Assembly (NCBI GenBank): GCA_019637095.1
Contig: JAHBWG010000003.1
Coordinates: forward strand, 124,001-188,000
Length of the DNA stretch: 64,000 bases
DNA from: Sandaracinaceae bacterium
GTDB taxonomy: Bacteria > Myxococcota_A > Polyangia > Polyangiales > Sandaracinaceae
Direction: 5' to 3'
Shown: piece after piece, positions 25,702 to 60,966 of the stretch
Position numbering within the stretch: the first letter of the stretch is position 1
Layout of the letters: each line of letters starts with the position of its first letter
Notes under the pieces: model-generated
Database searches by the model: none
What the model saw: only the letters and a program-made list of their open reading frames with translations
Told to the model about the DNA's origin: nothing
Position numbers and translations under genes: made by a program

Positions 25702-25794
25702 CGTACGCTCGCGCTCCCGCCGCGCGTACCCCTTTGGGACATCGACGCTGGGTCCACCTCTCGCGCATCGTCGACGACGCAGCGGCCGCGTCAT

Positions 25795-26049
<255 letters not shown>

Positions 26050-26050
<1 letters not shown>

Positions 26051-26570
26051 GACCAGCGCGAGTCCGTCACTCGAAACGCGAATGACGAGATGACGAGGAT
26101 CGTCCCCGAGCAGTCCGGCTCGCCTGAGCGTCCTCGTCCTCGTCCTCGTCCCCGTCCCCGTCCTCGTCCTCGTCCTCGTCCTCGTCCCCGACCAGCGCGA
26201 GTCCGTCACTCGAAACGCGAATGCGAGATGACGAGGATCGTCCCCGAGCAGTCCGGCTCGCTCATGAACCGCGAATGACGAGATGACGAGGATCGTCCCC
26301 GACCAGTCCGTCTCGCTCCGCGAATGACGAGATGACGAGGATCGTCCCCGAGCAGTCCGGCTCGCCTGAGCGCGAATGACGAGATGACGAGGATCGTCCC
26401 CGACCAGTCCGTCTCGCTCCGACCAGCGCGAGTCCGTCACTCGAAACGCGAATGACGAGATGACGAGGATCGTCCCCGACCAGCCCGTCTCGCTCTGCGA
26501 ATGACGAGATGACGAGGATCGTCCCCGACCAGCCCGTCTCGCTCCTCCCCGACCAGCCCGTCTCGCTCCC
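26050..26570 (+). repeat. Cluster of seven ~50-bp hairpin repeats
   Basis: Seven copies of a core reading GCGAATGACGAGATGACGAG then GATCGTCCCCGA begin at 26078, 26217, 26272, 26320, 26372, 26448 and 26497. Most continue into a variable (C/G)CAG(T/C)CCG(T/G)CTCGC tail; an eighth tail-only copy ends the cluster. Three copies (beginning 26051, 26190, 26421) carry a further 28-bp left extension, GACCAGCGCGAGTCCGTCAC then TCGAAACG. The 26217 copy has a 1-nt deletion. Each core holds a GACGA/TCGTC hairpin. No coding gene is supportable here. Confidence 0.85.
26131..26190 (-). repeat. Short hexanucleotide satellite inside the hairpin-repeat cluster
   Basis: Ten units of GACGAG/GACGGG (minus strand) sit between the first two copies of the hairpin repeat, where other neighbouring copies abut directly. 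This suggests the satellite grows from the GACGAG hexamers inside the repeat itself. Confidence 0.8.
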
Positions 26571-28124: not shown

Positions 28125-29636
28125 CTACGCCAAGAGGCCCCAGCGCGCGAGCGAGGCGAGCGCCTCCGCGATCCGCGCGTCGAGCGAGCCCTCCGCCGAC
28201 ACCGGATCGCCCGCGAGCGCGGCGACGAGCTGAGCGAAGTCGCGCGAGCCGTCGAGGTGGTCGACGAGCGCGCGCTCGAGCGGCCCGAGCGGGAGCATCC
28301 CGCCGGTGGGCGTCGAGAGGACGTCACGCTCGCGCGCCTCGAGCCGGGTGAGGTCGAGCGCGCGCGGCCGCTCCGGGACCGCGACCCCGAGGCGCGCCGG
28401 CTCGAGGCGGAGCTCGACCTGCATCTCGGTGTAGAGCGCGCCGAGCGCCTCGGCGAGCCGCGCGGGCGGATCGGCGGCGAGGCCGAGCGGCGCGAGGCGC
28501 GCCGCGCACTCGGCGTGCAGCGCCTCGAGGCGCAGCGCCTCGGGGTAGCGCGAGGCGAGCAGCAAGAGCGCGATCTTCGTCGTCGCCGAGCGCACGCGCA
28601 CCTCGCGACCGAGCGCGCCGTCGAACGTCTCCTCGACACCCTCGCGCGCGTCGAACGGATCGCTCCGCCGCGCGAGGGCGGACGCGATCCACGCGTCGGC
28701 GACGAGCAGCGCGGGCCTCGGCGGCGCGCCGACCGCGCCCGTCTTGGCGAGCACGGCGGCGCGGAGCTGCCGGAAGGCGACGAGGTCGATCCAAGCGTCC
28801 GCCGCGCCCGCGCCGCCCCCGAGCCGAGCGGCCGCCGCGGCGAGCTCCGGGTCGACGAAGCCCTCCGCGCGATCGAACGTGGCGTCCCCCACGTACGCGA
28901 GGCCCTCGTCGGCGAACGCGCGCGCCACGTCCTCGAGCCAGAACGCTTCGTTGACGGGCGCGAGGTACTCGTGGGCGAGGTAGCCGTCCTCGGCGTGCGC
29001 CGCGCGAGCGAGCTCGCGCGCGAAGAGCGCGGGCCACGGGCCATCGCCGACCGCGCCGGCGAGCGCGGCGAGCCCATCGAGCGTCGCGCGCGCCTCGGTG
29101 AGGCCGCGCGGCCGCGCGCGCAGCAGCGCGGCGCGCACGAGCCCGCGGACCGACCAGCCCGGCTCCGCGTTGAAGCTCACGTACGCGAGCCCGCCATCGA
29201 CGAGCGCCCGCGCGGTGAGGCGCCGCAGCGACGCGCGCGCGTCCGCGTCGATCCAGGAGTAGACGCCGTGGGCGAGCACGACGTCGAACCGCTCGTCGGG
29301 CGCGGCAGGCGCGTAGGCCGCGAGATCGGCGAGCTCGAAGCGCACGTTGGTGAGCCCGAGCGCGCGCGCCGCCTCGCGCGCCCGCGCGATCGCCGGCGCG
29401 CTCGCGTCGATCCCGACGGCGGCGACGTGCGGCCGGAACCACGCGAGCGAGAGCAGGTGCGCGCCGTCCCCGCAGCCGAGCTCGAGCACGCGCGTGCGCT
29501 GCGTCGGGTCGAGCGCCGGGCCCCCGTGCGCGCGCGACGTGAGCGCGAGCGCGGCCGGCGTCGCCCACGGCACCGGGCGCCCGCGGTACGGGACGGCGTC
29601 GTAGCCGAAGGGGCCGCGCTCACGGTTCTCGCCCAT
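28125..29636 (-). CDS. Class I methyltransferase with regulatory domain (PKMT-like)
   Basis: 503 residues from ATG 29636. The SAM-binding core is clear: RVLELGCGDGAHLLSLAWFRP (motif I, about residue 50), AVGIDASAPAIARA, and FDVVLAHGVYSWIDADA. The middle part (NEAFWLEDVARAFADEGLAYVGDATF) is the regulatory domain found in rickettsial-type protein lysine methyltransferases and related enzymes. A C-terminal winged-helix-like part follows (LSTPTGGMLPLGPLERALVDHLDGSRDFAQLV). Substrate is unknown; proteins are plausible. Its start is only 24 nt from the start of the divergent DUF2325-like gene, so the two probably share one regulatory site. Confidence 0.85.
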   Translation of the reverse strand: MGENRERGPFGYDAVPYRGRPVPWATPAALALTSRAHGGPALDPTQRTRVLELGCGDGAHLLSLAWFRPHVAAVGIDASAPAIARAREAARALGLTNVRFELADLAAYAPAAPDERFDVVLAHGVYSWIDADARASLRRLTARALVDGGLAYVSFNAEPGWSVRGLVRAALLRARPRGLTEARATLDGLAALAGAVGDGPWPALFARELARAAHAEDGYLAHEYLAPVNEAFWLEDVARAFADEGLAYVGDATFDRAEGFVDPELAAAAARLGGGAGAADAWIDLVAFRQLRAAVLAKTGAVGAPPRPALLVADAWIASALARRSDPFDAREGVEETFDGALGREVRVRSATTKIALLLLASRYPEALRLEALHAECAARLAPLGLAADPPARLAEALGALYTEMQVELRLEPARLGVAVPERPRALDLTRLEARERDVLSTPTGGMLPLGPLERALVDHLDGSRDFAQLVAALAGDPVSAEGSLDARIAEALASLARWGLLA

Positions 29637-29660: not shown

Positions 29661-32444
29661 ATGCTTCGCGGGGGGCCGAACGGCCACACCTGGCTCGGAA
29701 TCTGGAGGGACCTCGACCCCGCGACGAGGCGGGAGGTCGCGGCCGCCTCGCTCGAGGCGCCGCACCTCGCGAAGGCGCTCGTCATCGCCGTCGCGCGGCA
29801 CGATCGCGTGCGCCGCCAGTCGGTCGAGCGCTGGGACCTCGAGAAGCAGGCCCTGCACGTCGCGCGCATGCGCCGGCTGCCGAACGCGAAGCTCGCCGCC
29901 GCGCTCCTCACGCACTTCCACCTCACGCGTCGCCAGCGGCTCGTCGTCTCGTTCCTCGACTTCCTCAAGGTCCCCCACGACGCGGGCGTCATCCGCGACA
30001 TCGACACCGTGGAGCCGCCCGCGCGCAGCCGCATGATCGCGGCCATCCGCCGGATGAGCACGCTCTTCCCGCCGGCGCACGTGTCGCTCTTCTTCGACGT
30101 CGTCTCCTGTCAGACGTCGTTCGCCGTCTTCCGCGAGTTCGACTCGGCGCGGCTCGAGGCGCTCCCGAGCGAGCACGCCGTGATCCGCCGCGCGACGCCG
30201 AGCCTCGACACGTTCGGCGGCCAGCTCGACGCGGACTTCTCGAGCGAGCCCACCGCGCCCGAGGAGCCCGCGCCCGCCGCCGCCGCAGACGACACGCCGC
30301 CGACGTTCACCACGCTCGATCAGGTCCTCATCCGCTCCGTGATCGCGTCCGTCGCCGAGGTGCACGGCGCGCTCTCGCCCGAGAAGGTGGAGGACCTCGT
30401 CGAGGAGGTGGTCCAGCTCAACCTCGAGCGACACCAGAGCTACTTCCATCGGGGGTTCCTGGCGGTGCTGCTCGGCCGGCCGCTCGAGCTCGACTTCCCG
30501 GAGGCGAGCGACGTGCGGCGCGGCTGGTACGCCTGCGGCGCCATCCTCGGGCTCGCGCGGCGCGGCATGCTCGACGCGATCGTCGGCTTGCTCACGGAGC
30601 GGCAGGACCTCGCGCGGGAGCTCGCGCGGCCGGGCACCGGCTACGCGGAGCGCGTCGTCTCGACGGTGTTCTCCGCGTTCTGCGCCAAGGGCCGCTACGC
30701 GGAGGTCGCGCGCTTCCTCTCGCCCGCCGTGGTCGGCTACGCCGGCGTGCAGCTCGCCGAGGAGATCCTCGAGACGGCGTCCGGGCTCATCCGCCAACGC
30801 CGCGAGGCCGACGCGCGCCGCCTGCTCGACGTGCTGCTCGCCGCCCTGCCCGCGCTGCGCGAGGACCCGGACCTCCCGCAGGACTTCGAGGTGCTGCTGT
30901 CGCGGCGGCGCGCCCACTGCGCGCGGCTGCGCGGCGACTTCGAGGGCGCGAAGAAGCTCCTCTTGCCGCAGCTCACCGCGGCCGAGGCGGACGTGCGCTC
31001 GGACATCCTCGCGGACCTCGGCCTGATCGACTGCGGGCTGCGCAGCCTCGCCGACGTCCGCCTCCCGCCGGACGAGTCGATGCTCGCGGAGTTCGGCGCG
31101 CAGTTCGAGAAGGGCTGGCCGCGCTTCCTCGAGTCGAGCCGCGTCGCCGCGGGCGGGCGCAGCCACGGCGACTTCTGCATCGGCCTCGCCCTGTTCGCGC
31201 GCGGCCAGACCGACGAGGCCATCCCGTACCTCGAGCGCGCCGTCGCGGGCATGGGCGCGGACCCCGATCGCTACGGGCAGTTCGGGCCGCTCGACACCGC
31301 GCGCCTCGCGCTCGCCGTCGCGCTCGCGGAGCAGACCGATCTCGCGCGCGTCCCCTACGCGCGCGACCTGATGAGCCAGGTCCTCGACTCCAAGCACAAG
31401 GTGCCCGACTACCTCCCCCGCCGCGTGCTCGTCGCGGTCGAGCTGACCGACCCGGAGATCGCGGTGGAGATCGCCCGCGAGATCTACGCGAGCCGCAACT
31501 CACGCAGCCTCGGCGTGCTCGCCGAGACGCGGCTCATCCGCTACTTGCCCGAGGCGCTCGACGAGCTGCTCGAGCTCGCCGGCCGCGACGGCTACAGCAA
31601 GGAGCGCCGGTTCGAGGCCGCGCGCGTGGTGCTCGCGGAGAGCCACGCGATGCGCGACGCGCCGAGCGCCGAGCGGCCCCCGAACCTGACCGAGCGCGCG
31701 ACCGAGGCGCTCGACGTCCTCGTCGAGCTCGCCGACGAGGAGCCCTTCCGCGGCCGGCTGCTCGAGCTGCTCGACACCCCGAACGGCGCGTGGCGCGCGG
31801 CGATGGATCCGACGGACCGACGCGTCGTGCGCGCGGCGCTGCTCGAGGACGCGGGCGCGTTCGCGAACGCGGCCAGCGAGCTCGTCGGCGCGTTCCACGA
31901 GACGCTCGACGCCGACGACGAGTGGGCGCTCGGCAAGGCCGAGGCCCTGCTCGAGGACATCCGCGCGCTCGGCGGCGACGAGGCGGTCGAGGGCCTCGAG
32001 GCGCGGCTCGCGCAGTACCGCGTGGTGTTCGAGCGCCGCTCGCAGTCCGGCCTCGTCATCCCGCCGACGGTGGACCCCGAGGACTTCTACGGGCTGGTCC
32101 TCGTGATCGGCGGCAACGAGACGCAGGCCGCGCAAGACGCGGCGATCGCGGCGACGATCAAGGAGCAGTGGCCGAACGTCTCGGTCGTGTTCGAGCGCAC
32201 CGGCTGGAGCAGCAACTGGGGCGAGCAGCTCCGCGTGATGGAGTCCGAGCTGACGCGCGCGCGCGCCGTCGTGCTGATGCGCTACGTGCGCACGATGCTG
32301 GGCCGCGCGATCCGCAAGCGCTGCTCGGAGCTCGAGCTCCCGTGGATCGCCTGCACGGGCAGCGGGCGCGCGTCGATGGTGCGCGCGATCGAGCAAGCTA
32401 TCTTGCTCGCCTGGAGGCAGGGCGGGATGGCGCGTCACGCGTGA
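29661..32444 (+). CDS. Large helical-repeat protein with C-terminal DUF2325-like domain
   Basis: 927 residues from ATG 29661. The first 800 residues are alpha-helical with TPR-like segments (SHGDFCIGLALFARGQTDEAIPYLERAVAG, YAEVARFLSPAVVGYAGVQLAEEI). The last 120 residues (LVLVIGGNETQAAQDAAIAATIKEQWPNVSVVFERTGWSSNWGEQLRVMESELTRARAVVLMRYVRTMLGRAIRKRCSELELPWIACTGSGRASM) are set out here in parts: VLVIGGNETQ, a mid-domain RTGWSSNWGEQLRVMESEL and a terminal ELELPWIACTGSGRASM. This order resembles DUF2325. A hairpin (CGAGCAAG-N4-CTTGCTCG) sits near the end. The stop overlaps the methyltransferase GTG by 4 nt. Function unknown. Confidence 0.7.
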   Translation: MLRGGPNGHTWLGIWRDLDPATRREVAAASLEAPHLAKALVIAVARHDRVRRQSVERWDLEKQALHVARMRRLPNAKLAAALLTHFHLTRRQRLVVSFLDFLKVPHDAGVIRDIDTVEPPARSRMIAAIRRMSTLFPPAHVSLFFDVVSCQTSFAVFREFDSARLEALPSEHAVIRRATPSLDTFGGQLDADFSSEPTAPEEPAPAAAADDTPPTFTTLDQVLIRSVIASVAEVHGALSPEKVEDLVEEVVQLNLERHQSYFHRGFLAVLLGRPLELDFPEASDVRRGWYACGAILGLARRGMLDAIVGLLTERQDLARELARPGTGYAERVVSTVFSAFCAKGRYAEVARFLSPAVVGYAGVQLAEEILETASGLIRQRREADARRLLDVLLAALPALREDPDLPQDFEVLLSRRRAHCARLRGDFEGAKKLLLPQLTAAEADVRSDILADLGLIDCGLRSLADVRLPPDESMLAEFGAQFEKGWPRFLESSRVAAGGRSHGDFCIGLALFARGQTDEAIPYLERAVAGMGADPDRYGQFGPLDTARLALAVALAEQTDLARVPYARDLMSQVLDSKHKVPDYLPRRVLVAVELTDPEIAVEIAREIYASRNSRSLGVLAETRLIRYLPEALDELLELAGRDGYSKERRFEAARVVLAESHAMRDAPSAERPPNLTERATEALDVLVELADEEPFRGRLLELLDTPNGAWRAAMDPTDRRVVRAALLEDAGAFANAASELVGAFHETLDADDEWALGKAEALLEDIRALGGDEAVEGLEARLAQYRVVFERRSQSGLVIPPTVDPEDFYGLVLVIGGNETQAAQDAAIAATIKEQWPNVSVVFERTGWSSNWGEQLRVMESELTRARAVVLMRYVRTMLGRAIRKRCSELELPWIACTGSGRASMVRAIEQAILLAWRQGGMARHA

Positions 32445-33157
32445 GCGCGCCGGCCGAGCTCTACGCGGAGTCCGCGCTCTACGCGCTGTTGTTCCGGGAG
32501 CGAACCGCGGACGTCGCGTTCTACCGCGCGCTGGCCGCCGAGCACGGCGGGCCCATCCTCGAGCTCGGCTGCGGCGACGGACGCGTCGCGCTCGCGCTCG
32601 CGCGCGACGGTCACCGGGTCGTCGGGGTCGACCGCGCGCGCGCCATGCTCGACGCGCTCGAGGCGCAGCGCGGCGCGCTGGCGCTGGCGACGCACGAGGC
32701 CGACATGCGCGACGTGCGGCTCGGCGAGCGCTTCGGCCTCGTGATCGCGCCGTTCAACGCGTTCGCGCACCTCCACGCGCACGAGGACCGCGCGCGCTTC
32801 TTCGCCACCGTCGAGGCGCACCTCGCGCCCGGCGGCGTCTTCGCCTTCGACGTCACGATCCCCGACCCCGCGCACCGCGCGGGATCCACTTCCTTCGTGC
32901 CCCGCGTCGTGCACCCGCGCACCGGCCGCGTGTGCCGGCTCGAGGAGCGCACCGCGTTCGACCCGTCGACGGAGGTGCGCACCATCGAGACGCGGCTCGT
33001 CGAGCGCGAGAGCGGCGAGGTGCAGGTGCTGTCGCTCGCGCTGCGCGAGTGGGACCCGGCCGCGACCGCGCGGATGCTCGAGGGCTTCGGGCTCGTCGTC
33101 GAGCGACGCAGCGCGGACATCGGGGACTCGCTCGCGTACGTCTGCCGCCTGCGCTAA
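32441..33157 (+). CDS. Class I SAM-dependent methyltransferase
   Basis: 238 residues from GTG 32441, overlapping the previous TGA (GTGA). Motif I is ILELGCGDGRVALALARDG, followed by VVGVDRARAMLDAL, FGLVIAPFNAFAHL and a post-core beta strand region. It resembles small-molecule methyltransferases of the type 11/25 class. The substrate is not evident. Translational coupling to the DUF2325-like protein suggests a shared task. The Rieske protein gene starts 10 nt after its stop, so it may be part of the same transcript. Confidence 0.85.
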   Translation: MSAPAELYAESALYALLFRERTADVAFYRALAAEHGGPILELGCGDGRVALALARDGHRVVGVDRARAMLDALEAQRGALALATHEADMRDVRLGERFGLVIAPFNAFAHLHAHEDRARFFATVEAHLAPGGVFAFDVTIPDPAHRAGSTSFVPRVVHPRTGRVCRLEERTAFDPSTEVRTIETRLVERESGEVQVLSLALREWDPAATARMLEGFGLVVERRSADIGDSLAYVCRLR

Positions 33158-33167
33158 GAACGAGGCC

Positions 33168-34247
33168 GTGCCGACCGAGCCGAAGCTGGTCCCGCCGCGC
33201 GCCAAGGGAAGCTCCGTCGCGCGCGTCAGCGCGGCCTGGTACGTCGCGTGTACGTCGCGCGAGCTCGGCCGCCGCGTCCCCGTCGCGCGCACGATCCTCG
33301 GCCAGCCGATCGCCCTCTTCCGCGGTGAGGGCGGCGCGCCGGGCGCGCTCCTCGACCGCTGCCCGCACCGCAACGTCCCGCTCACGCTCGGCCGCGTGAC
33401 GGACCGGGGCGCGCTCGAGTGCGGCTACCACGGGTGGCGCTTCGATCGCGGCGGGCGGTGCCTCGAGGTGCCGGCGCTCTGCGGCGTCGCCGAGGCGAGC
33501 GCGCGCGACGCGGTCTCCTTCGCCTGCGTCGAGCAGGACGGGTACGTCTGGGTGTGGGGCGAGCCGGGCGTCGCGCCGAGCGCGCAGCCGTTCCGCTTCC
33601 CGTTGCTGTCGGCGGAGGGCTACACGAGCGTGCGCCAGCACGTCGTCGCCGACGCGTCGGTGCACGCGGTCGCCGAGAACGCGCTCGACGTGCCGCACAC
33701 CGCGTTCCTGCACGCCGGGCTGTTCCGCTCGGACGCGCGCGCGCGCAACCGCGTCGAGGTCGTCGTGCGGCGCTGGCACGACCGCGTCGAGGCCGAGTAC
33801 GTCGGCGAGCCGCGCCCCGAGGGCCTCGTCGGGCGCCTGCTCTCGCCCAAGGCCGGCGTGGTCGAGCACTGGGATCGGTTCCTGCTGCCGTCGATCGTGC
33901 AGGTCGAGTACAAGCTCGACGCCGCGCACGTCTTCGTCTGTGCCGCGATGACGCCCGAGAGCGACTACCGCACGCACCTCTACGCGGTGGTGAGCTTCAA
34001 GCTGCCGATCCCCGGCTGGCCGCTCGTCCCGCTGCTGAAGCCGATCGCGCTCGCGATCTTCAGCCAGGACGCGCGCGTGCTGCGGCGGCAGACCGACAAC
34101 ATCCACCGCTTCGGCGGCGAGAGCTACGTCTCGACGGAGATCGACGTGCTCGGGCCGCACATCCTGCGCCTCCTGCGCGCGGCCGAGCAGGGCAAGCTCG
34201 AGCCCTCGGACGCGCCCAAGGAGCGGCGCTTCCACATGGACGTCTGA
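33168..34247 (+). CDS. Rieske [2Fe-2S] aromatic-ring-hydroxylating oxygenase-like protein
   Basis: 359 residues from GTG 33168. The Rieske centre is complete: CPHRN near residue 65 and CGYHGW near 85. A mononuclear iron site of the Rieske oxygenase type follows: ENALDVPHTAFLHAGLF near residue 170, with Asp and two His spaced as expected. This is the alpha-subunit layout of single-component or KshA/VanA-like oxygenases; the substrate could be an aromatic or a sterol-like compound. It starts 10 nt after the methyltransferase stop and is followed, 3 nt after its stop, by the nitronate-monooxygenase-like gene, so they look co-transcribed. Confidence 0.88.
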   Translation: MPTEPKLVPPRAKGSSVARVSAAWYVACTSRELGRRVPVARTILGQPIALFRGEGGAPGALLDRCPHRNVPLTLGRVTDRGALECGYHGWRFDRGGRCLEVPALCGVAEASARDAVSFACVEQDGYVWVWGEPGVAPSAQPFRFPLLSAEGYTSVRQHVVADASVHAVAENALDVPHTAFLHAGLFRSDARARNRVEVVVRRWHDRVEAEYVGEPRPEGLVGRLLSPKAGVVEHWDRFLLPSIVQVEYKLDAAHVFVCAAMTPESDYRTHLYAVVSFKLPIPGWPLVPLLKPIALAIFSQDARVLRRQTDNIHRFGGESYVSTEIDVLGPHILRLLRAAEQGKLEPSDAPKERRFHMDV

Positions 34248-34250
34248 ATC

Positions 34251-35246
34251 ATGCAAACCGCCTTCACCGCCCACGCCGGGATCCAGGTGCCGCTGATCTG
34301 CGGTGCGATGTACCCGTGCTCGAACCCGGAGCTCGTCGCGGCCGTCAGCGCGGCGGGCGGCATCGGCATCGTACAGCCGATCTCGCTCAGCTTCGTGCAC
34401 CGCCACGACCTGCGCGAGGGACTGCGGCTGATCCGGCGCATCACCGACGAGCCGATCGGCTTCAACGCGCTCGTGGAGAAGTCCTCCGACGTCTACATGG
34501 ACCGGATGAAGCGCTGGGTCGACGTCGCGCTCGAGGAGGGCGTGCGCTTCTTCGTGACCGCGCTCGGCAACCCGCGCTGGGTCGTGGACCGCGTCCACGC
34601 GGTCGGCGGCGTCGTCTATCACGACGTGACGGAGCGCCGCTGGGCCGAGCTCGCGCTCGACCACGGCGTCGACGGCTTGATCTGCGTGAACCGCCGCGCG
34701 GGCGGGCACGCCGGCCGCCGCGCGCCGGAGGCGCTCCTCGAGGAGCTCTCGGACCTCGGGGTGCCGCTCGTGTGCGCGGGCGGCATCGGTGACGAGCGCG
34801 CGTTCGTCGAGGCGATCGAGATGGGCTACGCGGGCGCGCAGCTCGGCACGCGCTTCATCGCGACCACCGAATGCGCGGCCCACGACGACTACAAGCGCGC
34901 GATCCTCGCGGCGGGCGAGGACGACATCGTGCTGACGGAGAAGATCAGCGGCATCCCGGTCGCGGTGATCGAGACCGACTACGTGCGCCGCGTCGGCACG
35001 GAGGCGGGCTGGCTCGCCAAGCGGATGCTCCGCCACCCGCGCGCGAAGCACTGGATGCGGATGATCTACCAGGCGGTGAGCGTGTGGCAGCTCCGCCAGG
35101 CGTCGCTGCGCGGCACCTCGTACCGGGACTACTTCCAGGCCGGCAAGAGCGTCGGCGGCATCCACGCGATCGAGCCGGCCGGCGACATCGTCCGGCGCTT
35201 CGCGGCCGCGCTCGACGCCGCCGACCGCGCGCGGATCACCGCGTAG
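34251..35246 (+). CDS. Nitronate monooxygenase-like FMN enzyme
   Basis: 331 residues from ATG 34251. It has the TIM-barrel features of the 2-nitropropane dioxygenase family: VPLICGAMYPCSNPELVAAVSAAGGIGIV, GFNALVEKS, DGLICVNRRAGGHAG with the catalytic-type His, VPLVCAGGIGD and GYAGAQLGTRFIATTECAAHDDYK for FMN binding. Such enzymes oxidise nitronates or act as enoyl-reductase-like proteins. It overlaps the end of the convergent kinase gene by 11 nt. With the Rieske protein it may form a short oxidative pathway (inference). Confidence 0.85.
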   Translation: MQTAFTAHAGIQVPLICGAMYPCSNPELVAAVSAAGGIGIVQPISLSFVHRHDLREGLRLIRRITDEPIGFNALVEKSSDVYMDRMKRWVDVALEEGVRFFVTALGNPRWVVDRVHAVGGVVYHDVTERRWAELALDHGVDGLICVNRRAGGHAGRRAPEALLEELSDLGVPLVCAGGIGDERAFVEAIEMGYAGAQLGTRFIATTECAAHDDYKRAILAAGEDDIVLTEKISGIPVAVIETDYVRRVGTEAGWLAKRMLRHPRAKHWMRMIYQAVSVWQLRQASLRGTSYRDYFQAGKSVGGIHAIEPAGDIVRRFAAALDAADRARITA

Positions 35247-56852: not shown

Positions 56853-57797
56853 ATGCCTCCTCCTGCACGCGCGCCCGAGCTCCGCGGCCCGCCACGAACA
56901 GCGCTCCTCACGCTGAGCGCGCTCGTCGCGTTCGCGGCGAGCTCCCTCATCACACGCCGCGCGCTCATGACCGACGCCATCGATCCCGCGACCTTCACGC
57001 TCGTGCGGCTCGGATCGGGCGCGCTCGCCCTCGCGTCGTTCGCGCGACTCACCACGGGTCCGTCGAGGCCAGTCGCGCCGGGGTCGCGCTGGCGCGCCTG
57101 GGGGGGCGCCGTCGCCCTCGCGCTCTACGCCGTCCCCTTCTCGTTCGCCTACGCGCGGCTCGACGCGGGCATCGGCGCGCTCCTCCTGTTCGCCTCCGTG
57201 CAGGTGACGATGATCGCGCACGGGCTCGCGACGGGCGACCGGCCGACGCCGAGGGCGTGGCTCGGCTCCGCCGGGGCGCTCGTCGGGCTCGTCCTCCTCA
57301 CCTGGCCAGGCGCATCAGCGGTCGATCGTCCCGGGGCGGCGTCGATGGTCCTCTCGGGAGTGGGCTGGGGCGCGTACTCACGCGTCGGCGCCGGCGAGGC
57401 GGCGCCAGCGCGGGCGCTCGCCGCGAGCTTCTGGCGAGCGGCGCTCCTCGTCGCGCCGCTCGCGTGGCTGGCGCTGCCGCGCCTCGTCGACACGACGCGC
57501 GAAGGGCTCGCGCTCGCGCTCGCCTCGGGCGTCCTCGTCTCCGGCGTTGGCTACGTCGCGTGGTACGCGGCGCTCCCGGCGCTCGGCGCCCCGCGCGCGG
57601 CGCTCGTCCAGCTCGCCGTGCCAGTGCTCGCCGCGAGCTTCGGGGTCGCGCTCCTCGACGAGGCGATCACGGCGCGCCTCGCCGTCTCCGGCGCGCTCGT
57701 GATCGGCGGCGTCGCGCTCGGGCTCCGCGCGCGATCTCGCGACGCGCCGGCCCGCGAGTTCGCTCAGCGGGAGGCGCGGGACGCGCCCTCGGCGTGA
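56853..57797 (+). CDS. EamA/DMT-family transporter
   Basis: 314 residues from ATG 56853. Ten membrane helices in two repeats: ALLTLSALVAFAASSLITRRAL at the start; IGALLLFASVQVTMIAHGL at the end of the first EamA unit; SGVLVSGVGYVAWYAALPALGAPRAALVQLAVPVLAASFGVALLDEAIT in the second, with the usual P-x-x-A-x-x-F/G-E pattern (VPVLAASFGVALLDE). It probably exports small metabolites. Its last 34 nt overlap the convergent SGNH gene. Confidence 0.88.
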   Translation: MPPPARAPELRGPPRTALLTLSALVAFAASSLITRRALMTDAIDPATFTLVRLGSGALALASFARLTTGPSRPVAPGSRWRAWGGAVALALYAVPFSFAYARLDAGIGALLLFASVQVTMIAHGLATGDRPTPRAWLGSAGALVGLVLLTWPGASAVDRPGAASMVLSGVGWGAYSRVGAGEAAPARALAASFWRAALLVAPLAWLALPRLVDTTREGLALALASGVLVSGVGYVAWYAALPALGAPRAALVQLAVPVLAASFGVALLDEAITARLAVSGALVIGGVALGLRARSRDAPAREFAQREARDAPSA

Positions 57798-58990
57798 TCG
57801 AGCGCGGCGACGAGGCGGCGCGCGATCACCTCGCGCCCGCGCGGGGAGAGGTGCTTTCCGTCCGTCGACGCGAGGCCGAGCCGCTGCCACTCCTCGAACG
57901 AGCCCGCACCGCCCATCGCCTCGAGCGAGCTCCAGAAGGCGCAGCCGGCGCGCGCCGCGGCCGCGCGCTGCGCGCGCACGATCGTCTCGACGTGGTGGCG
58001 CTCCACCGTGGCCGTCCCGGACTGCGCGTGATCGGTGATCCCGAGCAGCAAGCACGCCGCGTTCGGGACGGCGCGCCGGACGCGCGAGAGCACCTCCGCC
58101 GTCTCGCCGGTGAAGCGCGGCTCGTCGACCACCCCGCCGATCAAGCGGCGCAGGTCGTTGCCGCCGAAGCTCAGCACGACGAGGGCCGGGTCGCGGTGCG
58201 CGAGCTGCCCCGCGAAGTGGGCCTCGTCGCTGGCGAGCATGCGCGGCGTGAAGGCGCCGACCATGGAGATCGAGTCCCACACGACGCCCGGGCCTTCGCC
58301 CTCGAGCACGACGCCGTATGCGCGCGCGATGCCGCCGCCGTCGGCGCTGACGCGCACCGTGTGCTGACCCGGCTCGCGCCGGATGGCGTGCCAGCGATCC
58401 TCGAGGACGTCGGCGCGCGTCGCGAGGCGCTCGTACGCCGCCTCGCCTCGGCCGAAGCGGAACGCGATGCGGCCGCCGCCCGGGTGCGCCGCGTACCACA
58501 GCTCCGCGCGCGAGATGCGGCGCCCAGGCCGCAGGACGATCTCCGAGATCGCCCCGCCGGAAGAGGTGACGGTCACGCCGCCGAGCCCGTAGCGGCCGTC
58601 GCGCGCGCAGCGGTGGATGATGAAGCAGAGGTCCCACTCCGCCTCGGTGCGCAGCCAGAGCAGCCGGTTCGCATAGCTCCCGCTCGACGCTTGCAAGAGC
58701 ACGAAGCCGGGGCCCGCGTCGCCGTAGCGCGACTGGTAGATGCCGCGCAGACGGTGCGGGAGATCGTCGAGCCCGATCGACGAGTCGCCGAGGTGGGTGA
58801 CGCGCGCGATCGTGCCCGCGTCGCGGGTGCGCGCGAGCGCCTCGAAGAAGGGGCGCAGCGCGCGGTGGCCCTCGATCGCGGGCGTGGCCCCGGGCGCGTC
58901 GGTGCGCGCCGGCGCCGGCTGCGCGCGCGCCATCGACGCTACGCCGGCGAGGGCGAGCGCGAGCGACGCGAAGCGGATCGAGCGAGACAC
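57764..58990 (-). CDS. Exported SGNH/GDSL-type hydrolase
   Basis: 408 residues from GTG 58990. A signal peptide (IRFASLALALAGVASMARAQ) directs export. The hydrolase block I is VTHLGDSSIGLDDLPHRLRG, where GDS holds the nucleophile Ser. LVVLSFGGNDLRRLIGG is block III with the oxyanion Asn, and DGKHLSPRGREVIARRLV near the C-terminus carries the catalytic Asp/His. A beta domain lies between the first two (about 110-240). This is the layout of periplasmic peptidoglycan or exopolysaccharide O-acetyl esterases. The substrate is not known. Confidence 0.85.
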   Translation of the reverse strand: MSRSIRFASLALALAGVASMARAQPAPARTDAPGATPAIEGHRALRPFFEALARTRDAGTIARVTHLGDSSIGLDDLPHRLRGIYQSRYGDAGPGFVLLQASSGSYANRLLWLRTEAEWDLCFIIHRCARDGRYGLGGVTVTSSGGAISEIVLRPGRRISRAELWYAAHPGGGRIAFRFGRGEAAYERLATRADVLEDRWHAIRREPGQHTVRVSADGGGIARAYGVVLEGEGPGVVWDSISMVGAFTPRMLASDEAHFAGQLAHRDPALVVLSFGGNDLRRLIGGVVDEPRFTGETAEVLSRVRRAVPNAACLLLGITDHAQSGTATVERHHVETIVRAQRAAAARAGCAFWSSLEAMGGAGSFEEWQRLGLASTDGKHLSPRGREVIARRLVAALDHAEGASRASR

Positions 58991-59062
58991 GACGCCCTCG
59001 GCATACACCCGCGCGCCCGCGCGCTCAACGCGCCGGCCCGGCGAGCCAGCTCGATCTGCGGT

Positions 59063-59467
59063 ATGAAGGCGACCGTGAAGTCGTTCATCGAGCACGCGAT
59101 GATCGCGCTCTATCCACGGACGGACGCGCTCCCCGGGATCGAAGACGCGGGCATCTCCGAGTTCCTCGATCGCTACCGCGAGGAGTCGACGCTCCTCATG
59201 TGGCTCGGGCTGATCGCGGGGGCCTTCGCGTTCATCGCGAGCCCGATCCTCACCGTCCACTGGCCGCTGCCGTCGTTCCTGCTGCCGGCGCGCGTCCTCG
59301 ACGAGCACGCGCACCGCGTGACGAGCTCGCAGCTCTACCTCCTGCGCCAGGCGATCTTCCTCATCAAGCTCGCCGCGGGGCTCTGCTGGGGCGCGCACCC
59401 GGCCGTGCGCGCGCACTTCGCGATGGCCCCGTACGCCCCCGACCCGGGCACCTGGCGGGCCTCGTGA
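59063..59467 (+). CDS. Small membrane protein coupled to a GMC oxidoreductase
   Basis: 134 residues from ATG 59063. Hydrophobic segments are at about residues 48-72 (LLMWLGLIAGAFAFIASPILTV) and 100-118 (AIFLIKLAAGLCWGA). The C-terminus (AMAPYAPDPGTWRAS) is soluble. Small hydrophobic partner proteins encoded just before GMC oxidoreductase genes occur elsewhere, where they serve as membrane anchors (family analogy). Its TGA overlaps the GMC GTG by 4 nt (GTGA). Confidence 0.75.
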   Translation: MKATVKSFIEHAMIALYPRTDALPGIEDAGISEFLDRYREESTLLMWLGLIAGAFAFIASPILTVHWPLPSFLLPARVLDEHAHRVTSSQLYLLRQAIFLIKLAAGLCWGAHPAVRAHFAMAPYAPDPGTWRAS

Positions 59468-60966
59468 GCCACGTCGCCTTCCGCGAGCGCGGCGAGGACC
59501 TGCGCCTCGAGGCCGACTACGTCGTCGTCGGCAGCGGCGCGGGCGGCGCCGCGGCGGCGGTGACCCTCGCGCGCAGCGGCGCGGAGGTCGCGATCATCGA
59601 GGCCGGCGCGTGGCGCGACCCCGAGGACTACCCGAGCTCGACCTACGGCGCGATGCGCGACCTGTTCGACGACTGGGGCACGCAGCTCGCGCGCGGGCGC
59701 GCCCTGTGGCCGATCGTGCAGGCGCGGACCGTCGGCGGCACGACGGTGATCAACTCGGCGATCTGCGTGCGCACGCCGGGCGACATCTTCGCGCAGTGGC
59801 AGCGCGAGCGCGGGATCGAGGGGCTCGCCGAGCGCGTGTGGGCGCACCAGGACACGCTCGAGCGCGAGCTCCGGGTCGAAGAGGTGCCCGAGCCCGCGCG
59901 CGGCAACAGCAACCGCCTCGCGATGCTCGGCGCGAGCCGCGCCGGCTACGACAGCCACTGGATCCGCCGCTACGTCGCCGGGTGCGAGGGCACGGGCCAG
60001 TGCCTTCAGGGCTGCAAGAAGACGCGCAAGCAGAGCACGAACCTCAACTACGTCCCCGAGGTCCTCGCGCGCGGTGGACACGTCGTGAGCTCGGCGCCGG
60101 TGAAGCGCGTCGCGATCGAAGGCCGCCGCGCGATCGGCGTGCGCGGCCGCTTCGAGCACCCGCGCACCAAGGCATGGGGCGCGGACTTCTTCGTACGCGC
60201 GCGTCGCGCGGTCGTCGTCGCCGCGAGCGTGACGCACTCGCCCGCCCTGCTCGAGCGCTCGGGCGTGCGCTCGCCCGCGCTCGGCAAGTACTTCCGCGCG
60301 CACCCGGGCACGGGCGTGTTCGGCATCTACGACGAGCCGGTCGACACGAACACGGGCGCGACGCAGGGCTGGGCCTCGACCGCGTTCCGCGCCGACCCGG
60401 GCCTGAAGCTCGAGACGCTCTCGATCCCCTTCGAGATGGTGGCGAGCCGGCTCTCCGGCGGCGGCGCGCGCCTGATCGAGCGGCTGCGCGAGTACCGCCA
60501 CCTCTGCATGTGGTGCCACGCGGTCCGCGCCGAGTCCGTCGGCACCGTGAGGAACGGCCTCTTCGACAAGCCGGTCGTCCGCTATGGCCTCGACCGCGAG
60601 GACATGCTGCGTTTCCGGCAGGGGATGATCTTGCTCGCCAAGACGCACTTCGCCGCGGGCGCCAAGAAGATCCTCCCCGGGATCCACGGGATGCCGTACG
60701 AGCTCGGCCCCGATCAGGTGAGCCTGCTCGAGGACGCGCCGCTCGACCCGCGCGCGTATATCGCGATCCTGAGCCACCTCTTCGGAGGCTGCGTGATGGG
60801 CACGGACCCGCGCGACGCGGTGACGGACGCGCGCGGGCGCGTGCACGGCTACGACGGGCTCGTCGTCGCGGACGCCTCGGTCATCCCGAGCAACCTCGGC
60901 GTCAACCCGCAGCACACGATCATGGCGCTCGCGATGGCCTTCGCCGAAGACCTCGCGAGCGAGTGA
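59464..60966 (+). CDS. GMC-family FAD-dependent oxidoreductase
   Basis: 500 residues from GTG 59464. LEADYVVVGSGAGGAAAAVTLARSGAEVAIIEAG binds FAD (residues 16-50). Also seen are TVGGTTVINSAICVRTP, a Cys-rich GCEGTGQCLQGCKKTRKQST region (near 180), and the C-terminal HLFGGCVMGTDPRDAVTDARGRVHGYDGLVVADASVIPSNLGVNPQHTIMALAMAFAED block, whose LGVNPQHTIMALA end is characteristic. It resembles GMC enzymes with long substrates (sterol or long-chain alcohol oxidases). It forms an operon with the membrane protein before and the kinase gene 9 nt after. Confidence 0.88.
   Translation: MSHVAFRERGEDLRLEADYVVVGSGAGGAAAAVTLARSGAEVAIIEAGAWRDPEDYPSSTYGAMRDLFDDWGTQLARGRALWPIVQARTVGGTTVINSAICVRTPGDIFAQWQRERGIEGLAERVWAHQDTLERELRVEEVPEPARGNSNRLAMLGASRAGYDSHWIRRYVAGCEGTGQCLQGCKKTRKQSTNLNYVPEVLARGGHVVSSAPVKRVAIEGRRAIGVRGRFEHPRTKAWGADFFVRARRAVVVAASVTHSPALLERSGVRSPALGKYFRAHPGTGVFGIYDEPVDTNTGATQGWASTAFRADPGLKLETLSIPFEMVASRLSGGGARLIERLREYRHLCMWCHAVRAESVGTVRNGLFDKPVVRYGLDREDMLRFRQGMILLAKTHFAAGAKKILPGIHGMPYELGPDQVSLLEDAPLDPRAYIAILSHLFGGCVMGTDPRDAVTDARGRVHGYDGLVVADASVIPSNLGVNPQHTIMALAMAFAEDLASE

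Follow-up and report, generated by a model that had tools for sequence, protein, structure and literature searches.

A Sandaracinaceae helical-repeat protein of 927 residues with a C-terminal domain probably remotely related to DUF2325

The present analysis concerns a gene for a 927-residue protein within a 64,000-nucleotide stretch of DNA (the window; contig JAHBWG010000003.1, positions 124,001 to 188,000), which is part of the 9.25 Mb genome of a Sandaracinaceae bacterium (GCA_019637095.1). Prediction and comparison indicate that this protein consists of two helical modules, a helical solenoid and a four-stranded alpha/beta C-terminal domain, the last of which is probably a remote relative of the DUF2325 family. 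The gene and its parts, in window positions, are:

29661..32444, + strand: 927-residue helical-repeat protein with a putatively DUF2325-related C-terminal domain (open reading frame, homologues, model)
29880..30131, + strand: N-terminal helical module, residues ~74-157 (hhalign against small proteins, genome hits)
30303..30626, + strand: second module, residues ~215-322, motif TLDxxL...SYFHxGF...LG (common to proteins of 720-730 residues)
30648..32030, + strand: predicted helical (TPR-like) solenoid, residues ~330-790 (secondary structure of the model, sub-threshold TPR_2)
32082..32423, + strand: four-stranded alpha/beta domain, probably DUF2325-related, residues ~808-921 (motifs, profile comparison, model), with the motifs GGNExQ, WxSNxG, RTxLGxxxR and PWxxCxGxG (alignment of six members)

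The reading frame, proposed by an initial annotation made from the sequence alone, can be regarded as real, since homologues with 67-69% identity are open along their full length in three related genomes.

The same annotation described the end of the protein as resembling DUF2325, an intuition that proved a good one with regard to remote homology but not with regard to membership. PF10087 does not match the 927-residue protein even at E <= 10, let alone at its gathering cut-off of 33.6 bits. It was found at E <= 10 in three of ten family members, every time below the cut-off, the best match being the homologue at locus L062 (18.8 bits, spanning 2-91 of 94 positions), and a search of the organism's own genome found no PF10087 protein. 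As all tested members fall below the Pfam cut-off, direct membership was rejected. A comparison of profiles gave a different picture. Aligned with hhalign, the C-terminal regions of six members and a DUF2325 set of 13 sequences (those over the cut-off, from 12 of 47 genomes, with four weaker matches omitted) reached a score of 31.2 over 83 columns, and eight random seven-sequence subsets of DUF2325 yielded scores of 22-42 over 75-88 columns. Column shuffling gave at most 18.75 in 100 trials, three unrelated enzyme families gave 11-20, and 12 sets of response regulators drawn from the same genome, whose fold is comparable in size and type, gave 11-17 over only 19-33 columns. Because the profile scores exceed those of both the response-regulator and the shuffle controls, the remote relationship is probably real. 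It has to be added that an alignment of only four C-terminal sequences matched DUF2325 with a Prob of 21%, or 2.4% with other settings, which is a weak result; the strong scores depend on the inclusion of two distant homologues. In sequence searches of the PDB, the four-sequence C-terminal profile found matches only at E >= 0.44 and DUF2325 only at E >= 0.061.

DUF2325 is a widespread and unexplained domain. The two domains are collinear alpha/beta structures over 75-88 columns and share a GG after the first strand and a conserved pair after the third, whereas this pair, an invariant Ser-His in the 13 DUF2325 sequences, is Arg-Thr in all six family members, which carry the W.SN.G and PWxxCxGxG motifs in addition. 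They further differ in context, as the domain described here is fused to a long helical solenoid, while Campylobacter Cj1384, an example of DUF2325, comprises 104 residues according to the accessible part of PMC9426514. The same part reports that the Campylobacter DUF2325 gene is clustered with katA and showed the largest increase in expression under bactericidal violet-blue light (PMC9426514). A solenoid fusion of DUF2325 is not described in the accessible parts of PMC9426514, PMC6934571 and PMC10534721, a coverage outside which most of the subscription literature falls. Another long-protein context was seen at loci L021, L023 and L025, where open reading frames of about 300-500 residues carry sub-threshold DUF2325 matches near the C-terminus.

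The residues that are invariant in the six members form four clusters, namely GGNExQ, W.SN.G (in which the Asn varies once), RTxLG and PW..C.G.G, and each of the four predicted strands is directly followed by one of these clusters. In the full-length model, only helices are present up to residue ~796, after which strands and helices alternate (E811-816 H E840-845 H E869-873 H E895-898 H), an order that is also found in a model of the C-terminal domain alone. Both the remote DUF2325 relationship and the placement of all four clusters directly after the four strands are carried by prediction and comparison. Rossmann-like domains bind ligands at the C-terminal ends of their strands. A solenoid-fused DUF2325 relative with four sharply conserved loops offers a testable place for a putative ligand. 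Structural match lists for the C-terminal model include MilB, DNPH1, dehydroquinases, sugar-binding proteins and designed Rossmann folds at Z 8-9.9, with none singled out. A comparison with SIR2/TIR folds, suggested by the initial annotation, brought up only generic Rossmann-like and non-significant matches (Foldseek, VIA), which lend no support to this identity.

With regard to the remainder of the protein, the helical repeats noted initially fit the low-confidence model, but in Pfam TPR stays below threshold; sub-threshold TPR_2 matches (E <= 10) were present in eight of ten family members. Among the best Foldseek matches to the full model are the TPR solenoid proteins O-GlcNAc transferase and SPINDLY (E 3e-5 to 6e-4), from which the 927-residue protein differs in having no repeat over the Pfam cut-off and in carrying two N-terminal modules, which thereby come to light as helical modules covered by no Pfam family. 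The first of these (residues ~74-157) also occurs in small separate proteins of other families in the class, five of which gave an hhalign E of 8.2e-13 and a score of 83, whereas none of 60 column shuffles scored above 21. Ten of the 317 genomes of the class matched this part only, three of these ten matches containing in-frame stops, and no Pfam family was found in the four small proteins that were scanned. Small proteins of this kind lie at loci L037, L039, L041-L044 and L052-L054, at several of which the next gene, judged by eye, presumably encodes the same phosphoesterase-like protein. The second module (residues ~215-322) is common to proteins of 720-730 residues in four genomes that belong to one other family (G057-G060; hhalign E 1.4e-9, 90 columns). 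A GG motif can be seen by eye in the C-terminal region of the latter proteins; a relationship of that region to the domain described here was unsupported (Prob 0.15% to the six members, 1.4% to DUF2325). A PaaB match within the solenoid (E 0.007, below cut-off) was taken as chance, and a sequence search of the PDB found no match for the 927-residue protein.

Within its phylum, the family has a rare and patchy distribution. Full-length homologues were found in four of 56 relatives, the own genome counted, and in five of the 317 genomes of the class, the fifth with 34% identity; the nearest named relative found is a Sandaracinaceae metagenome-assembled genome (69% identity). A profile of the C-terminal domain detected six of 377 genomes in a sample of the phylum, adding G377 and G420, in whose class it occurs in two of 90 genomes. 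A scan of GTDB contigs returned one locus only and, since this was a single scan with single-sequence patterns, distant members in other phyla are possible. A tblastn search of PLSDB with the C-terminal domain found no plasmid relative, 14 pattern matches in IMG/VR contained no relative, and PHROGs gave a single weak match (E 0.013).

The gene is flanked by two methyltransferase genes that use S-adenosylmethionine (SAM), and two further genes follow downstream in the same direction:

28125..29636, - strand: divergent PKMT-like SAM-methyltransferase, ~503 residues (Pfam over cut-off, start codon located)
32441..33157, + strand: class I SAM-methyltransferase, 238 residues, overlapping the 927-residue frame by 4 nucleotides (Pfam)
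33168..34247, + strand: Rieske / VanA_C-type oxygenase (context; Pfam over cut-off)
34251..35246, + strand: nitronate monooxygenase-type enzyme (context; Pfam NMO, 134 bits)

Both methyltransferases named by the initial annotation were recovered as described. The PKMT-like gene starts at 29636, 25 nucleotides from the 927-residue frame, and its product matches MethyTransf_Reg (41.9 bits, cut-off 25.5) and PKMT_2nd (30.0 bits, cut-off 27.8), as in protein-lysine methyltransferases of the PKMT type. On the other side, the TGA stop of the 927-residue frame (32442-32444) shares the letters 'gtga' (32441-32444) with the GTG start of the smaller methyltransferase, which matches Methyltransf_25 (E 8.9e-16) and whose nearest named family is NF041820, comprising methyltransferases of daptide-type ribosomally synthesized and post-translationally modified peptides (residues 5-224, 119 bits, below the 175-bit cut-off).

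From this arrangement it had been suggested that three genes with two methyltransferases are linked, a proposal that does not hold when ten homologue loci of 5-16 kb are searched for the neighbours (tblastn, E <= 1e-3; locus L061 is truncated where its contig starts, and the genomes G005 and G008 belong to one genus). The PKMT-like gene was found at none of the ten loci; it is a neighbour only, with paralogues on other contigs in G005 and G008 and a second copy, likewise on another contig, in this genome. The small methyltransferase occurs at three loci, all from close relatives (G002, G005 and G008; ~50% identity), so that the homologues lack methyltransferase neighbours entirely in the one case and partly in the other. 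At these three loci, the methyltransferase lies on the strand opposite to the homologue, convergent with it and divergent from the Rieske gene, and is separated from the homologue by an ABM-like gene in G005 and G008 and, in G002, by an H-type lectin gene and a gene that we take to be katG-like (L007:3773-6139). Among the loci examined, the 4-nucleotide overlap was seen in this genome only. The same three loci also hold the Rieske gene (69-77% identical) and the nitronate monooxygenase gene, and L062 gave one weak partial Rieske-like match. In G005 and G008, a gene presumably encoding a GMC oxidoreductase is located 5' of the homologue, and in G002 it is a few genes off; in the window its counterpart (59320-60954) is 27 kb away from the 927-residue gene, which indicates that the region has been rearranged. 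Judged by eye, 57791-60954 comprises SGNH-like and GMC oxidoreductase genes, both near the homologue in relatives and 25-27 kb away here. The best methyltransferase match is 36-43% identical in six genomes of the bacterial family without the 927-residue gene vs 51-52% in the three with it, which fits a joint inheritance of one neighbourhood. We can conclude that the coupling to the methyltransferase most likely arose by accident of the local gene order. The downstream methyltransferase is part of a small neighbourhood that is conserved locally and contains redox enzymes (Rieske oxygenase, nitronate monooxygenase, GMC oxidoreductase); here this neighbourhood happens to be partly co-directional with the 927-residue gene. 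The methyltransferase reading should not be carried forward.

From our point of view, the 927-residue protein could tentatively be regarded as a cytosolic adaptor or scaffold that combines a solenoid with a ligand-binding C-terminal domain, a reading to which we assign a probability of roughly 45%. In such a protein, the TPR-like solenoid and the two additional N-terminal modules would bind a protein partner, while the Rossmann-like domain would hold a small ligand of probably anionic or nucleotide-like character, with the site at the C-terminal edge of the sheet, and ligand binding might switch or tune the interaction with the partner. The neighbouring methyltransferases would lie outside this mechanism. 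Several points weigh against such a role. The full-length model is weak (mean pLDDT, the predicted local distance difference test, of 55.9; built on two sequences) and the C-terminal model modest (66.8 from one sequence, 43-67 over five models), and the details of both are therefore unreliable; within the solenoid, values mostly reach 54-89 and fall below 50 at about 441-500. TPR_2 scores 20.3 against a required 27 bits, the C-terminal model had no significant structural match (best Foldseek E 0.011), and ligand and partner are both putative. Lastly, four close genomes have retained the 927-residue gene, the methyltransferase gene and the Rieske gene within one neighbourhood despite the rearrangement, leaving some room for a link.

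It is conceivable, if unlikely, that the C-terminal domain is instead an enzyme acting on nucleotides or nicotinamide adenine dinucleotide (a nucleoside-deoxyribosyltransferase or a TIR-like hydrolase), which the solenoid would restrain in the manner of sensor-effector conflict proteins. Nucleotide N-glycosidases (MilB, Z 9.5; DNPH1, Z 8.5; 4mcj) and TIR domains indeed recur in the Foldseek and VIA lists, but no Foldseek match reached E 0.001, and since ABC-type binding proteins, dehydroquinases and designed Rossmann folds score equally (Z 8-9.9), the arrangement appears generic. The glutamate of GGNE is, moreover, the sole acid among the residues invariant in the six members, with none on the third or fourth loop, and PADLOC returned nothing for the protein. 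A modification system, in which the co-translated methyltransferase, and possibly the PKMT-like one as well, would act on a substrate or carrier presented by the solenoid protein, seems quite unlikely to us. Co-translation is suggested by the overlap, and the orthologue of ~50% identity lies nearby in all three other close genomes, with 36-43% at best in the six family members without the gene; against this stand the opposite strand and the intervening genes in these three genomes, the absence of the methyltransferase at seven of seven distant loci and of the PKMT-like gene at ten of ten, and a co-occurrence confined to one family.

One could also speculate that the protein has an accessory role in nucleotide-signalling immunity, type III CRISPR systems being one example, and that its C-terminal domain senses the signal; we consider this very improbable. 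This idea originates from the G420 homologue at locus L061, which is truncated by the start of the contig and lies downstream of csm3-csm4-csm5 (L061:1650-5121; NCBIfam 192.6, 122.9 and 69.1 bits, all over cut-off) and convergent, not co-directional, to csm5. It is one of ten loci, and no cas genes were noticed around the others by eye or in the Pfam searches made, which were not a systematic cas search; a single case does not amount to an association. The same case underlies a broader suggestion, which we regard as similarly improbable: the domain would define a family of its own, made up of small Rossmann-like sensors for nucleotide second messengers (GGNExQ / W.SN.G / RTxLG / CxGxG), with the solenoid proteins as effectors or adaptors that in one lineage are tied to a type III-A CRISPR locus.

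An assignment to a defence system was not supported by PADLOC, which gave no match for the 927-residue protein and partial ones for the methyltransferases: both match only the SAM part of mad2 (profile 286-427 of 492), no search for other mad genes having been made, and the PKMT-like protein is also matched weakly by a Type II methyltransferase (E 0.0084). Elsewhere, the G377 homologue adjoins a gene for a PQQ-domain protein, and the G288 homologue precedes genes for proteins with no or weak Pfam matches. An Rfam scan of 20-42 kb of the window found no family at gathering threshold. Two tandem arrays at 25794-26051 and 26216-26569 (a 12-nucleotide unit in 21.5 copies, then units of 49-52 nucleotides in about 4 and 2 copies) lie upstream, with respect to the minus strand, of an open reading frame that we take, by eye, to be GH114-like.

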